Shown one piece after another: positions 15,926 through 46,130 of a DNA stretch of 53,206 nt; the first letter of the stretch is position 1; each line of letters opens with the position of its first letter. The DNA lies in assembly GCF_001654865.1 (NCBI RefSeq), contig NZ_LXEO01000021.1:1-53206 (forward strand), read 5' to 3'. The translations under genes were made by a program, and so were the position numbers. The notes under the pieces were generated by a model. The model worked only from the letters and a program-made list of their open reading frames with translations, was not told where the DNA came from and did not search any database. This DNA comes from Buttiauxella noackiae ATCC 51607 (GTDB lineage: Bacteria > Pseudomonadota > Gammaproteobacteria > Enterobacterales > Enterobacteriaceae).

Positions 15926-16900
15926 ATGAAAGCAGTCGTACTTGAGCAAGTTGAAGGCAAGACTCTGGCCGAGGTAAAACAAATCTCTGAGCCAGCAATC
16001 GAACTGGGAAATGTGCTGGTTGATGTTGAGTGGTCAAGCCTGAACTATAAAGATGCGCTGGCGATCACCGGCACAGGCAAAATCATCCGTAACTTCCCGA
16101 TGGTTCCGGGGATTGATTTCGCAGGCCGCGTGGCGAGTAGTGATGATGCTAATTTCAGCGCAGGTCAGGAAGTGGTGTTGACCGGCTGGGGTGTGGGCGA
16201 AAATCATTGGGGCGGTCTTGCTGAACTAGCGCGTGTGAAATCCGAATGGCTGGTTCCCCTGCCTGCTGGCCTTAGCGCACGTAAAGCGATGATCGTTGGT
16301 ACCGCTGGATTTACTGCCATGCTGTGCGTGATGGCGCTGGAAGATGCAGGTATTACGCCAGAAAGCGGTGAAGTGGTTGTAACCGGTGCCAGCGGCGGCG
16401 TAGGCAGTACTGCAATCGCTCTGCTGCATGCTTTGGGCTACCAGGTTGCCGCTGTTTCTGGCCGGGAATCCACACACGACTATCTGCGCCAGTTAGGTGC
16501 CAGCCGCATTCTGCCACGCAGTGAATTCGCTGAAACTCGTCCGCTGGAAAAACAAGTGTGGGCTGGCGCGGTAGATACCGTAGGTGGCAATGTGCTCGCC
16601 AAACTGCTGGCACAGATGAACTACTCAGGTTGTGTCGCGGCCTGTGGCCTCGCGGGAGGGTTCTCACTGCCAACAACGGTGATGCCATTCATTCTGCGTA
16701 ACGTGCGCCTGCAAGGTGTAGATTCGGTGAGTGCCCCGCAAGTTCGCCGCATCGCTGCATGGAAACGCCTTGCTGAGTTATTGCCAGAAAGCTTCTATGA
16801 AGCTGCGACAACAGAAATTAGCCTGGAGCAGGCGCCACAAGTTGCAGAAAGCTTTATGAGCAATGAGATTCAGGGCCGCACGTTGGTGAAGGTTAGTTAA
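15926..16900 (+). CDS. acuI: Acrylyl-CoA reductase / YhdH-type quinone oxidoreductase
   Basis: 324 aa medium-chain dehydrogenase/reductase of the YhdH/AcuI group, which reduces toxic acryloyl-CoA to propionyl-CoA with NADPH. The start KAVVLEQVEGKTLAEVKQI, the SSLNYKDALAITG stretch and the nucleotide-binding motif TGASGGVGSTA (about residues 153-163) are diagnostic, as is the absence of zinc ligands. The ATG follows ATGAGGAATC. It is divergent from the ABC importer unit, with 260 bp between starts. Older annotations call the group quinone oxidoreductase. Confidence 0.9.
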   Translation: MKAVVLEQVEGKTLAEVKQISEPAIELGNVLVDVEWSSLNYKDALAITGTGKIIRNFPMVPGIDFAGRVASSDDANFSAGQEVVLTGWGVGENHWGGLAELARVKSEWLVPLPAGLSARKAMIVGTAGFTAMLCVMALEDAGITPESGEVVVTGASGGVGSTAIALLHALGYQVAAVSGRESTHDYLRQLGASRILPRSEFAETRPLEKQVWAGAVDTVGGNVLAKLLAQMNYSGCVAACGLAGGFSLPTTVMPFILRNVRLQGVDSVSAPQVRRIAAWKRLAELLPESFYEAATTEISLEQAPQVAESFMSNEIQGRTLVKVS

Positions 16901-16961
16901 TTTTTTAAGGATCGAAGGTTTCCGTTCATCCTGGTGTGCAGTTCCTATGAAGAAACGGTGA

Positions 16962-17493
16962 TTTTCCGTTCACCTGAACGTAATTCGATCCCACATCTTT
17001 CGGTGAACGGTGAACGTGCCAGGAGGATAACGACATCCCCTGGCAACCCCGGCTCCCGGTGATTAAATTGCCGCTGCGCGGTAAACCCCAGCTTATCCCC
17101 AACGTTCAGGGTCGTTCGCTATTCGTTCCTGACGATCGCTCTCTTTCACGGCGGACGGCAGCTCAACCCTGACTTATGGGTAACGCTGGAGCAATTTATA
17201 CCGGGAACAAGGTCAAAACTGGCTCGGCTTTTGACTTTGACCTTCGAGTCCGGCATAAATCGCCTCCGTTTTGACTGTAAGGCCGGGTCGAGCCGTCGGG
17301 AACGGCGAGAGGTAGTGATCGCCGGGAGCGCGTCACAACCGACCCAGGGACTGAAAGGAAAAACGGAGGTTTACTGCGAAGCAGCGATTTAATCGCCGGG
17401 AGCCGGGATTGCCAAGGGTGCTGCGGTAGCACCCTTGGCACGTTCACCGTTTCGGTAGCTTCTGGGAACACTGAACGCTCAGTGAACGGAAAA
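16962..17493. repeat. Gene-free, nested inverted-repeat element of about 530 bp
   Basis: It fills the space between the convergent ends of acuI and cobT and has no plausible gene. Complementary arms are nested symmetrically. Outer ends TTTTCCGTTCAC (from 16962) pair with the sequence near 17482-17493. A perfect 15-bp pair joins 17006-17020 to 17437-17451. A 39-bp imperfect pair joins 17048-17086 to 17369-17407. Local hairpins occur at 17019-17043 and, with a perfect 12-bp stem, at 17411-17439. Inside, CCTCCGTTTT (17262-17271) pairs with the sequence ending at 17369. It could be a non-autonomous mobile element or a structured RNA. No transposase and no target duplication are visible. Confidence 0.7.
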
Positions 17494-17530
17494 AAGCAAT
17501 CTCACAAAGCATTCCCACATAATCAGGAAC

Positions 17531-18583
17531 TCACCCCGGCAACACAATATTGCTGTCTGCAAGCGATCCCATATTGTTGTGCATTGCGCATGCCGCATCC
17601 ACCAGATGCATTGCCAGTGCCGCACCACTGCCTTCACCTAAACGCATACCCATTTGCAAATACGGCTCCAACCCTAATTTATTCATCGCGATAACCGCAC
17701 CTTTTTCCGCAGATAAATGCGACGGGATTAGGTAATCACGCACACCTGGCGCAATCTGGCAGGCCGCGAGTGCTGAGGCATACGACAAGAAACCGTCGAG
17801 AACGACCGGCAGGCCAGCTGCCGCTGCACCCAACATCACCCCTGTCATCCCTACCAGGTCGAAACCACCCACTTTGACCAGCACATCAATACCATCAGCT
17901 GCATCAGGTTGATTGGTTTCAATCGCTTTACGTACTACGGAAATTTTGTGATGCATCTGGTCGACTGGGAAGTTAGCGCCCATACCAACAACGTCATCCG
18001 GTGAGCTATCGGTGAACACGCTGACCATCGCTGCCGCAGGCGTGGTATTGGCCATACCCAGTTCACCCACACCAAACAGCGTTACACCTTCAGCGGCTTT
18101 CTGAATGGTGAGTTGCATGGTTGCCAGCAGCAGATTTTCTGCTTGCTCACGGCTCATCGCCGGACCTTGCGCAATGTTGCCACTGCCGCGCGCCACTTTC
18201 ATATCCAGTACACCTGGCAGAACATCGCTGTCGATACCAACATCGACCACATGAATATCCGCACCGACAGTCGCGCCCAGGACACACACGCCAGTGTTGT
18301 GACGCGTCATGTTCATTGCCTGAATAGCGGTGACAATTTGCGGTGAAATAGCCACACCTTCGGCATACACTCCGTGGTCGGCACACATCACGAAGATTGA
18401 TTTGCGTTTAGTGTTCAGGCCATTTTTCATACCTGGCATTCCTGCCAGCTGCACCGCTAATGCTTCCAGACGCCCAAGGCTGCCGAACGGTTTAAGCAGG
18501 CCGTCGATATGTTGTTGTGCGCGTGACATTGCTTCGCTATCAAGCGGAGAAATCATTGCCAAAAGGGAGTTCAGTGTTTGCAT
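17531..18583 (-). CDS. cobT: Nicotinate-nucleotide-dimethylbenzimidazole phosphoribosyltransferase CobT
   Basis: Makes alpha-ribazole phosphate from nicotinate mononucleotide and dimethylbenzimidazole, activating the lower ligand of cobalamin. 350 aa, matching the Salmonella enzyme in length; the stretches [38 protein letters not shown] and [14 protein letters not shown], which carries the catalytic glutamate, are intact. Last gene of the cobalamin operon. It is separated from cobS by about 100 bp holding a paired REP element, so its translation depends on its own weak site (AAAGAG). A structured element lies directly downstream. Confidence 0.96.
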
Positions 18584-34285: not shown

Positions 34286-34324
34286 ACTGACTTCCCACCG
34301 AAGGAGTTGTTTTAGAGTAATAGT

Positions 34325-34475
34325 GACAAGTCGGTCTTCTGGCTTAGCTTCATTCTTACCTGCCCTTCCCAATCAACGATCAGTGGTTACGCAGGTTCGT
34401 CAGCATCACAGCAGCGGGGGCTGCGGGGGATTGTCACCCCCTTCCCAGCCATGTTTGACACATGGCATAAACGAG
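34325..34475 (-). ncRNA. Cobalamin (adenosylcobalamin) riboswitch
   Basis: On the minus strand the order of conserved blocks is GGGAAGGGGGTGACAATCCC, the GCAGCCCCCGCTGCTGTGA block, GCCACTG-like AACCACTGATC, a second GGGAAGGGCAGG, and the B12 box AGCCAGAAGACCGACTTG (34327-34344). This is the standard core. It precedes cbiA and should repress the whole 20-gene operon when cobalamin is plentiful, as known in Salmonella. Confidence 0.95.
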
Positions 34476-34706
34476 TCAGTTGTATCTGTTTTAATTACCG
34501 TTTTACTGCATGACGTTTTTAAATCATCACGCAGATAAATATTTAAATGAGGGTCTAGTGTAAAAGCTAATAGATATTGATTGTTGCGCTATAACAATTT
34601 TTACTGATTTTTATTAAGGCTTACCCCCTAATCGTTGGCGTGCGCTGCTGTGGTATCATCCTGCGCCTGCGGTGAAAAAACAGAATGAATCCCAACATGA
34701 AAAAGA

Positions 34707-42325: not shown

Positions 42326-42492
42326 GGTCATTCCCCCAAACGGCGAATACCTGCGCAAAAGCAAAAAGCTGCCCCATCTTAATTTCCTCGGCGACACGAC
42401 TGTCGTTTTTTAAAAGCTAGTATCTATCCGGTACGAAGCCCGGCCTCTTGGTTTTTTTGGCGGATGCCTGTTTGACTACTTGAACTCAATGC

Positions 42493-42527
42493 AAAAAAAT
42501 AACCGACGCGTTTAACGTCGGTTTTTT
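42493..42527. terminator. Bidirectional terminator after the aminotransferase gene
   Basis: AACCGACG-CGTTTAA-CGTCGGTT with runs of T on both strands (six on plus, seven on minus). It begins within five bases of the aminotransferase stop and separates it from plaP. Confidence 0.85.
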
Positions 42528-42531
42528 GTTC

Positions 42532-43830
42532 TCATTTAGTGAGGCGCGTATTTTGCACCAATTCGAGGCAGGATGACAAGATATTGAGGCCTTCATTAAC
42601 AATTTCTTTTTCAGCCGTTAACGGGACGAGAAAACGAATGACATTCGCTCTCACTCCACATGACAGCAACACCAAACCTTTTTTGCCGGCTTCTTTCACA
42701 AGTTCCTGTGTTAACTCTTTATTTGGGCGGTGGCTATCGCGTTCTTCCACAAGCTCCATTGCAATCATGGCACCATAGCCGCGCACATCACCGATGCAGT
42801 TAAATTGCTCGCTCATTTGCTGTAAACGATGAGTGATTAGCTCACCAATTTCCTGCGCCTTTTGATTGAGATTTTCTTGCTCAATGACATCAGTAACCGC
42901 CAGTGCCGCAGCAATCGCTACAGGCGAGCCGGCATAGGTGCCACCAAGACCGCCAGGCATCGCTTTATCGAACAGAGATTTTTTGCCAACCAGCGCTGAA
43001 AGTGGGAAGCCACCTGCCAGGCTTTTTGCCATGGTGATGAGATCCGGCTCCACATCACTGTGTTCAATCGCGAAGGTTTTACCTGTGCGGCAGAAACCAC
43101 TTTGTATTTCATCTGCAATCAGAACGATGCCGTGTTTATCGCACAACGCCCGCAGTTGTTTCATGAAGGAAGGCGATGCGGCATAGAAACCGCCCTCACC
43201 TTGCACCGGCTCAATAATGATGGCGGCGACTTCATCCGGCGAAACATCAGCAGCAAAAATACCCGCCAGTGACGCCAGCGCCTGAGTATCACTCACACCA
43301 AGATAGGCCGCCGGATAAGGTGCGTGATAAATGCCTGCCGGGAACGGGCCATAGCCTTTTTTATACGGCTGCACTTTACCCGTTAAGGCCATGCCGAGTA
43401 ATGTCCGGCCGTGGAAGGCCCCACGAAATGCGATGATGGCCGAACGCCCCGTCGCAATACGCGCCACTTTAATGGCATTTTCAACCGCCTCAGCGCCTGT
43501 TGTGAGAAACAGTGTCTGGCAAGGCTCGCTTATTGGCACCAGTTTATTCAGCCGTTCTGCAAGCTCAATATAATTGCCGTAAGGCGTCACCTGGAAACAA
43601 GGATGGGTGAATTTTTCAAGCTGTTGACGCACCGCATCAATGACTGCGGGGTGGTTATGCCCGGTATTAAGCACCGCAATACCAGAGGCAAAATCAATAT
43701 AGCGTTTGCCTTCAACATCCCACAATTCGGCATTTTTAGCTTTTTCGATGTATACCGGCATTGCATTACCGACTCCATGAGGAACCGCCTGTTCACGCCG
43801 TGACTGCCATTGCTGATTGGTTTGCTTCAT
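42532..43830 (-). CDS. 4-aminobutyrate-type class III aminotransferase (GabT/PuuE-like)
   Basis: 432 aa PLP enzyme that probably moves the amino group of GABA, or a related diamine product, to 2-oxoglutarate. Family signatures are FASGIAVLNTGHNHPAV, FLTTGAEAVENAIKVARI, AFHGRTLLGMALTGK, LIADEIQSGFCRTG and the PLP lysine in LITMAKSLAGGFPLSA. I chose the ATG at 43830 after CAAGGAG; the frame is open 12 codons more. It lies between yeeY and plaP, where E. coli has no gene; next to a putrescine importer it suggests a polyamine-GABA role. PuuE, GabT or GoaG cannot be told apart by reading. Confidence 0.9.
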   Translation of the reverse strand: MKQTNQQWQSRREQAVPHGVGNAMPVYIEKAKNAELWDVEGKRYIDFASGIAVLNTGHNHPAVIDAVRQQLEKFTHPCFQVTPYGNYIELAERLNKLVPISEPCQTLFLTTGAEAVENAIKVARIATGRSAIIAFRGAFHGRTLLGMALTGKVQPYKKGYGPFPAGIYHAPYPAAYLGVSDTQALASLAGIFAADVSPDEVAAIIIEPVQGEGGFYAASPSFMKQLRALCDKHGIVLIADEIQSGFCRTGKTFAIEHSDVEPDLITMAKSLAGGFPLSALVGKKSLFDKAMPGGLGGTYAGSPVAIAAALAVTDVIEQENLNQKAQEIGELITHRLQQMSEQFNCIGDVRGYGAMIAMELVEERDSHRPNKELTQELVKEAGKKGLVLLSCGVRANVIRFLVPLTAEKEIVNEGLNILSSCLELVQNTRLTK

Positions 43831-45946: not shown

Positions 45947-45997
45947 ATGACACGCGTTCAAACTACTACCCACCATCATCACCATCATCCTGACTAG
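45947..45997 (+). CDS. hisL: His operon leader peptide HisL
   Basis: A 16-codon peptide, MTRVQTTTHHHHHHPD, with six consecutive histidine codons. Ribosome stalling at these codons when charged tRNA-His is scarce should prevent formation of the terminator downstream. E. coli has seven His codons preceded by Phe-Lys; here three Thr codons precede six His. Too short for ordinary gene finders. Confidence 0.97.
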   Translation: MTRVQTTTHHHHHHPD

Positions 45998-46060
45998 TCT
46001 TTCAGGCGATGTGTGCTGGGAGACAGAAAAATCTTCCAGTGGTGCATGAACGAGTCAATA

Positions 46061-46094
46061 AGCCCCCGGAAGATTTCTTCCGGGGGCTTTTTTT
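46061..46094 (+). terminator. His operon attenuator
   Basis: AGCCCCCGGAAG-ATTT-CTTCCGGGGGCT is a perfect 12-bp stem followed by a long T run, 36 bp before hisG. The upstream sequence ATCTTCCAGTGGTGCATGAA can form the competing structures of the known attenuation mechanism. Confidence 0.95.
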
Positions 46095-46130
46095 TGGACG
46101 TCAGACAAGAATTTATTAGAGGGATTACTC

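Follow-up and report, generated by a model that had tools for sequence, protein, structure and literature searches.

The closest described systems to the repeat reported here are mobile elements and intergenic palindromes, and each resembles it only up to a point. Like MITEs, the repeat is non-coding and multi-copy, and relatives of the copy studied here have terminal inverted repeats, 9-bp duplications and, in the Enterobacter group, ends matching those of an IS. However, MITEs are described in excerpts of PMC2229807 as shorter than 200 bp, A+T rich and ending in TA, whereas the repeat is ~430 bp (Enterobacter group) or mostly 450-730 bp (Buttiauxella group) long, has a G+C of 0.60-0.69 in most units and lacks the TA, and it also differs in that its folded core is conserved and comes with either of two different end types. 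IS50/Tn5 is similar to the Buttiauxella copies in its 9-bp duplication and its ends, with CTGTCTCTTATACACAACT agreeing at 18 of 19 positions with the mosaic end and one other end at all 19, a likeness of sequence alone; in contrast to IS50/Tn5 the repeat has no internal transposase. The IS10/ISEc60-like elements of the IS4 family have the same 9-bp duplication; the CTGAGGGATCCCC ends of the Enterobacter copies match the IS10 end at 12 of 13 positions and are also found on a 1293-bp Buttiauxella IS, but here the repeat differs in that its ~427 bp are non-coding and contain just one folded unit. REP/BIME sequences are likewise palindromic and intergenic and fill the same genomic niche, but are 20-40 bp long (excerpts of PMC3733652), compared with a unit of ~245 nt with IS-type ends. 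The CsrB and CsrC RNAs also have several hairpins with GGA loops; unlike them, the unit is dispersed and has no Rfam match. ERIC/IRU, box C, PAIR and RSA are intergenic enterobacterial palindromes like the repeat, and we liken them to it by description only; a box-C-like palindrome is the usual insertion target of the repeat.

The window, a stretch of 53,206 nucleotides from Buttiauxella noackiae ATCC 51607, holds one copy of this repeat at 16962-17493, between acuI and cobT. The repeat forms a MITE-type family in which a conserved folded core is flanked by one or the other of two kinds of IS4-family ends. We favor the reading, with a probability of roughly 0.78, that the acuI-cobT block is an old, end-decayed insertion of this non-autonomous mobile repeat, served in trans by an IS4-family transposase. 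In the proposed mechanism the transposase, IS50/Tn5-like for the Buttiauxella group and IS10-like for the Enterobacter group, would bind the terminal inverted repeats, excise the repeat and paste it into a GC-rich palindromic target, which would create the 9-bp target duplication. The cargo is the ~245-nt unit, a branched stem with two GGA-loop hairpins and two tail hairpins.

The kind of element is known, but the combination of a folded core with two kinds of IS4-family ends appears to be new within the literature searched, which yielded no description of the repeat and had most subscription papers outside its scope. Older surveys of E. coli repeats (PAIR, RSA) may have covered the truncated E. 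coli copies. The family puts a name to what occupies several 3'-3' intergenic gaps in E. coli and other Enterobacteriaceae. Additionally, one fold behind two vehicles makes it testable whether a MITE owes its success to the structure of its cargo as well as to its ends.

Anatomy of the block

The acuI frame ends at 16900 and the cobT frame at 17531, with the two genes convergent (gene names by eye and from an earlier note) and the block lying between them. Folded as RNA, the 532 nt of the block reach -275.8 kcal/mol (z -13.8), and the fold as single-stranded DNA has a z of -12.25; in each case 0 of 100 shuffles were as stable. A sequence-only reading of this DNA had described five sets of arms placed symmetrically about the center, and an inverted-repeat search does return five arm pairs, which are better described as two inverted copies of one ~245-nt folded unit with their tails outward (Table 1). 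The same reading was right that TTTCCGTTCA recurs at 16919, because the left subterminal module sits there. The perfect hairpin that it placed at 17411-17439 is present, although with a stem of 13 bp and not 12. It had also called the block gene-free, and we agree: no reading frame is conserved among the copies, and only 5 of 17 Buttiauxella-type units are free of stops in the minus-strand frame that the window copy leaves open, which rules out a hidden gene. A single-copy or chance palindrome is ruled out by the fold energy relative to shuffles and by the dispersed copies described below.

Table 1. Features of the acuI-cobT block and its left flank, in window coordinates
Feature	Position	Strand	Remarks
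Left subterminal module TTTCCGTTCA...CCTATG...CGGTGATT	16919-16961	+	Common in part to other Buttiauxella copies (by eye)
Left outer arm TTTTCCGTTCAC	16962-16973	+	12 nt, pairs perfectly with 17482-17493; core end in many full-length copies
Second outer arm pair	17006-17021/17436-17451	+ (first arm)	16 nt, perfect
Left side hairpin TGCCAGG...CCTGGCA	17017-17045	+	Equivalent to the perfect hairpin in the right half; sequence reading and fold
Arm pair	17037-17098/17357-17418		62 nt, 82% complementary; contains the 39-bp pair 17048-17086/17369-17407 named in the sequence-only reading
Left half, inverted unit core	17053-17206	-	112.9 bits against model R1
Right half, unit core	17248-17402	+	151.8 bits against model R1 (itself among the 26 source sequences of R1); with tail 17248-17491
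Arm pair	17263-17284/17348-17369		22 nt, 77%
Hairpin GCCGT-CGGGA-ACGGC, first GGA loop of the unit	17292-17306	+	Alignment and consensus fold
Second GGA-containing hairpin CGC-CGGGA-GCG	17320-17330	+	Consensus fold
Perfect 13-bp hairpin	17410-17440	+	Arms 17410-17422/17428-17440; stem letters vary among copies, pairing kept
Right terminal hairpin GTTCACC...GTGAACGGAA	17441-17493	+	Right core end

In the folded unit TCCGGC/GCCGGG closes a long irregular stem, and two small hairpins sit at a junction; a hairpin that is perfect but variable and a terminal GTTCAC/GTGAAC hairpin complete it. The tail-out order is kept in every close pair of units among the matches listed, which come from Buttiauxella and five other genera, thus in the window and in several genera the inverted pair makes a super-hairpin of ~530 bp. 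Five units (L010, L047, L125, L147 and L185) carry an extra inserted block of hairpins with GGA loops, for example AAAATTGC-CGGGA-GCAATTTT, and such units are seen in the Buttiauxella type and the Enterobacter/Escherichia type alike.

Because the central hairpins came out misaligned when these two types were aligned jointly, covariation was assessed for each type separately; model R1, used for the searches below, was built from the mixed-type alignment and works chiefly as a sequence profile. Among the 15 units of the Buttiauxella type, 17 of 49 base pairs have changed at both positions without loss of pairing, and 97.4% of the cells pair. In none of 500 shuffles was the paired percentage, the number of two-sided changes or the covariation score as high as observed, in a control that ignores relatedness and tests a structure derived from the same alignment, and sliding the partners by 1-3 columns lowers pairing to 36-50%. 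The 11 units of the Enterobacter/Escherichia type have 12 such compensated pairs among 49.

Covariation of this sort could in principle be produced by template switching or gene conversion alone, which would keep the arms alike and leave the compensating changes without functional meaning. Palindromes are prone to such repair, and in this case each half is a copy of the same unit in opposite orientation. The form of the acuI-cobT region in genome G007 fits a deletion by slippage between short TGAACG repeats, and the number of further pair types in the Buttiauxella alignment is ordinary, being reached by 249 of the 500 shuffles. We nevertheless consider repair alone unlikely. Compensating changes are also found within single units, including solo Enterobacter units, where arm-to-arm repair inside one hairpin may still act, and the GGA loops are steadier than the stems, which is the opposite of relaxed constraint.

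Dispersal across genomes

The search of the own genome gave 22 matches at an E-value of at most 1, with both strands of one palindrome counted, and these include three further near-complete copies, one of them split in two pieces. When 60 relative genomes were searched, matches were found in 13, namely the own genome, 10 of the 11 other Buttiauxella and two belonging to other genera. By model R1, 67 of 295 Enterobacteriaceae genomes carry the unit, and so do 35 of 154 genera; copy numbers are lower bounds given that at most 10 candidates were scored per genome. The sequence-only reading had proposed a search for multiple intergenic copies, and such copies exist. In an order-wide sample 7 of 247 genomes match R1, and all 7 are Enterobacteriaceae. 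A single Enterobacter hormaechei chromosome accounts for 16 of the 75 stretches that fit a 19-base core pattern.

In E. coli, the unit between tauA and mmuM used as a query has similar stretches in 5375 of 5426 genomes, at a median of 3 places, but only 23 genomes cover 80% of the query. The places read were tauA-mmuM, yegH-asmA, proX-ygaY and lysO-aqpZ. At yegH-asmA the copy of DH1 (L104), whose matching part is ~150 nt, and the matching stretch of MG1655 (L103) both fall under the R1 threshold; these are the two without a match among 70 stretches (named or E. coli), of which 67 hold one unit and one Citrobacter record holds a pair. In the plasmid collection 3 records match the repeat, two of them chromosome-sized. 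No phage record matched the repeat, and a phage origin was ruled out on that basis.

Ends and target duplications

The copies of Buttiauxella genome G008 reach past the symmetric block to ends CTGTCTCTTATACACAACTCACCC... and ...GATGTGACTAAGAGACAG. A 16-base end searched with up to 1 mismatch occurs 21 times in this genome and its reversed-pattern control 0 times. Sharp common ends, which the sequence-only reading had named as a check, do exist in part of the fresher relatives, but these transposon-type ends are located ~50-100 bp outside the symmetric block of the kind seen at 16962-17493. The commonest Buttiauxella end is the 18/19 form CTGTCTCTTATACACAACT, with 14 instances among the best 12 forms, a count drawn from overlapping loci with a few instances from other loci such as L252; the mosaic end sequence used for comparison is that given in excerpts of PMC2229646 and PMC4248319. 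The 19/19 case, also among the best 12 forms (L219, G008:C1:895972-895987), is internal to a 5.1-Mb contig and continues directly into the right end of the repeat itself, therefore it is not a sequencing adapter. Since the laboratory Tn5 mosaic end has such a wild double, adapter trimming after tagmentation could go wrong and cut genuine reads.

Elements of the Buttiauxella group are mostly 450-730 bp long. The 9-bp target duplication is exact in 4 of the 21 rows with both ends and matches at 8/9 in 2 more, which are one orthologous site in G003 and G008, so that the 6 rows at 8-9/9 represent 5 sites; one locus stands twice among the 21 rows. Re-pairing the flanks gave a mean of 1.1 and a maximum of 5 in 2000 trials. 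The other 15 rows fall below 8/9, in searches that tolerated 2-3 mismatches in the ends and may have picked wrong ends. A 283-bp element (L224, G008:C1) has both Tn5-like ends and the exact 9-bp duplication CCCTAAGGG, and is either a shorter mobile form or the product of a later internal deletion.

In the Enterobacter group the unit lies within a ~427-bp non-coding element with CTGAGGGATCCCC ends, 12/13 to the IS10 end. There are 37 such elements, 35 from Enterobacter and 1 from E. coli among them. The 9-bp duplications are exact in 14 of the 37 and 8/9 in 5 more (19/37 at 8-9/9), compared with a mean of 4.1 and a maximum of 12 exact duplications for re-paired flanks in 5000 trials. The remaining 18 elements are below 8/9, several of them reading as shifted by one base.

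A candidate partner IS could be found for one of the two kinds of ends. The IS10 end used as a query matches 1156 plasmid records, of which the five listed fall under IS4-like features of the ISVsa5 family, which we take to stand for IS10. Two of the 17 DDE_Tnp_1 transposase loci in the 12 Buttiauxella genomes carry IS10-like ends on both sides. The one in G007 is a 1293-bp IS (L231:1258-2550, G007:C63) with ends CTGAGGGATCCCCAGAAAT and CTGAGGAATCCCCACAAA and an open frame of 399 aa, whose product is an IS4-family transposase (340 bits against a cut-off of 152; Pfam DDE_Tnp_1); it sits in a target of the form GGGGTTCCCC and is 72% similar to elements of the ISEc60 type that E. coli plasmids carry. 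Its relative in G003 is 1300 bp long with broken frames, and its left end is identical to the Enterobacter left end over 19 of 19 bases (by eye). This candidate IS10-like partner comes from Buttiauxella, not from an Enterobacter genome with the repeat. A Tn5-like partner in Buttiauxella was sought through transposase domains and ends, and no intact IS50-like element was found: none of the 17 loci has a close Tn5-like end (best 5 mismatches in 19), and the Tn5-type transposase domain PF14706 is absent from the two Buttiauxella genomes sampled and present in 8 of 149 family genomes. In G033 (L251, near locus position 1371-1605) a Tn5-like end lies ~130 bp from a truncated N-terminal piece of a Tn5-type transposase, which is possibly a relic of a helper element. 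Judging by the sequence of the ends, IS50-like and IS10-like enzymes would be the movers of the repeat.

The window copy itself does not show these marks: within 250 bp of it there is no Tn5-like end (best match 8 mismatches in 19) and no IS10-like end (best match 4 mismatches in 13), and no 9-bp target duplication was found for it. Several similar copies have identical neighboring sequence although they come from different species of Buttiauxella (L003, L027 and L036; by eye), thus such copies can be old. We infer that the window copy is an old insertion with decayed ends, and its relatives suggest that it arrived by the Tn5-like route. The term non-autonomous mobile element, used in the sequence-only reading, is therefore apt for the family, on the strength of its terminal repeats, partial 9-bp duplications, dispersal, filled and unfilled sites, type of target and an IS with IS10-like ends, while the window copy has neither end.

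Insertion sites and gene context

The 9-bp target of either group frequently has the form CCCNNNGGG and lies at the center of a palindrome, CCCTCTCCC-GGGAGAGGG, that we take to be a box-C-like repeat, with exceptions such as CTCAGTCCG. In excerpts of PMC1525189, Tn5 is reported to prefer palindromic targets whose duplication begins and ends with G/C, and an IS4-family element to insert into REPs.

Across the acuI-cobT gap of the window (16901-17530) and its orthologs (L109-L118), a pair of units is present in G000 and G010 and partial forms in G002 and G011. Short remnants lie beside inserted genes in G003 and G006, G007 has the deletion-like form described above, and G008 has a gene insertion (first 1200 of 1414 bases covered). 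REP-like palindromes are found instead in G004, G005 and G009, and in G001 the acuI side lies outside the fetched stretch. By eye, one of the regions of inserted genes resembles a HigBA-type pair and one a Fic protein. At proX-ygaY, 5370 E. coli genomes match the unit-bearing query, but just 531 of them span 80% or more of it, and the three shorter alleles examined carry REP-like sequence instead, which we presume to be REP. The E. coli tauA-mmuM region was unusable as an empty site, as synteny differs in the other strains listed.

The repeat is overrepresented where genes converge. Of 93 repeat-bearing junctions 58 are convergent, 32 tandem and 3 divergent, compared with 44 convergent (p 4.6e-17) and 63 divergent (p 3.6e-6) among 281 other junctions of the same stretches; the junctions come from a longest-ORF heuristic, the 281 were obtained by subtraction from one count and some of the 93 are orthologous sites. 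Together with the REP-like palindromes that replace the repeat at acuI-cobT in three Buttiauxella and at proX-ygaY in three E. coli alleles, this pattern would fit a repeat that is tolerated or kept as a 3'-end hairpin block, with a terminating, insulating or stabilizing effect, and that is interchangeable with REP/BIME. We hold this tentatively, at somewhat less than even odds. Purging of harmful promoter copies alone would lead to the same pattern, terminator-like sites show no excess over chance (1 found, 1.1 expected), and the detail of the fold is preserved beyond what a generic hairpin would need. Under the mobile-repeat reading that we prefer, the folded unit probably has a use, either for the repeat itself or for the 3' ends of its neighbors, because it persists from genus to genus and with either kind of end.

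GGA loops and RNA features

Minimum-energy folds of 31 non-redundant units place GGA in 66 of 168 apical loops, while in five shuffled sets it is found in 11-18 of 141-166. On the antisense strand GGA occupies 2 and TCC 36 of 164 apical loops. All 31 units have at least one GGA loop and 28 have at least two, and in hairpin 1 the GGA is invariant in 26 of 26 aligned units despite the turnover of the stem. Csr/Rsm sites are described in excerpts of PMC4005645 as A(N)GGA in hairpin loops, and excerpts of PMC7652899 give the SELEX consensus of CsrA as RUACARGGAUGU. The motif CANGGAYG is present in 14 of 14 Enterobacter/Escherichia-type units, of which 4 have TACAGGGATGT, the SELEX consensus minus its first base.

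These features raise the question of whether the unit is a functional RNA whose GGA loops would bind CsrA, with transcripts acting as CsrA sponges and selection keeping the fold. The excess of GGA loops, their constancy over varying stems, the CsrA-like motifs and the GGA loops of the extra inserted hairpins would all agree with this. Despite this we find it quite improbable. CANGGAYG is present in only 2 of 17 units of the Buttiauxella type, so the fit to a CsrA site is poor for the type to which the window copy belongs, and TACARGGATGT is present in 0 of these 17, where the loop is mostly CGGGA. The stems of 5-9 bp exceed the length favored in SELEX (excerpts of PMC7652899), and where two units form a pair, long-range folding works against the loops. 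The repeat also lacks a sense bias at tandem junctions, being sense in 18 and antisense in 14 (p 0.60). The binding of CsrA by the GGA loops is thus possible but not likely, and speculative. A bolder version, which we regard as very doubtful, is that a selfish repeat carries a portable RNA decoy whose GGA hairpins would titrate CsrA, with many 3' ends together acting as a distributed CsrB-like sponge. If this were true, the unit would be found in two MITE vehicles since it helps them, for example by relieving CsrA control of the transposase or of the host.

The sense fold is more stable than the antisense fold in 30 of 31 units and raw counts favor GU over AC pairs, but among pairs predicted from both strands GU:AC is 6:10 in the Enterobacter/Escherichia type and 22:12 in the Buttiauxella type. 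This is a weak strand test, without excess in the former type and with a small one in the latter, and strand asymmetry was dropped as proof of an RNA role. The sequence-only reading had offered an undescribed structured RNA as its other option; this is supported in part, as the fold is kept with compensating changes and matches no Rfam family, while the test for an RNA strand is weak. Four Rfam scans gave no family for the unit, the CsrB and CsrC models being unmatched at the gathering or a relaxed threshold, and naRNA4 hits in L051, L052 and L104 are under the gathering score and outside the unit. Elsewhere in the window, the Rfam scan found a cobalamin riboswitch at 34312-34491, an STnc240 sRNA at 42491-42566 and a His operon leader at 45973-46095.
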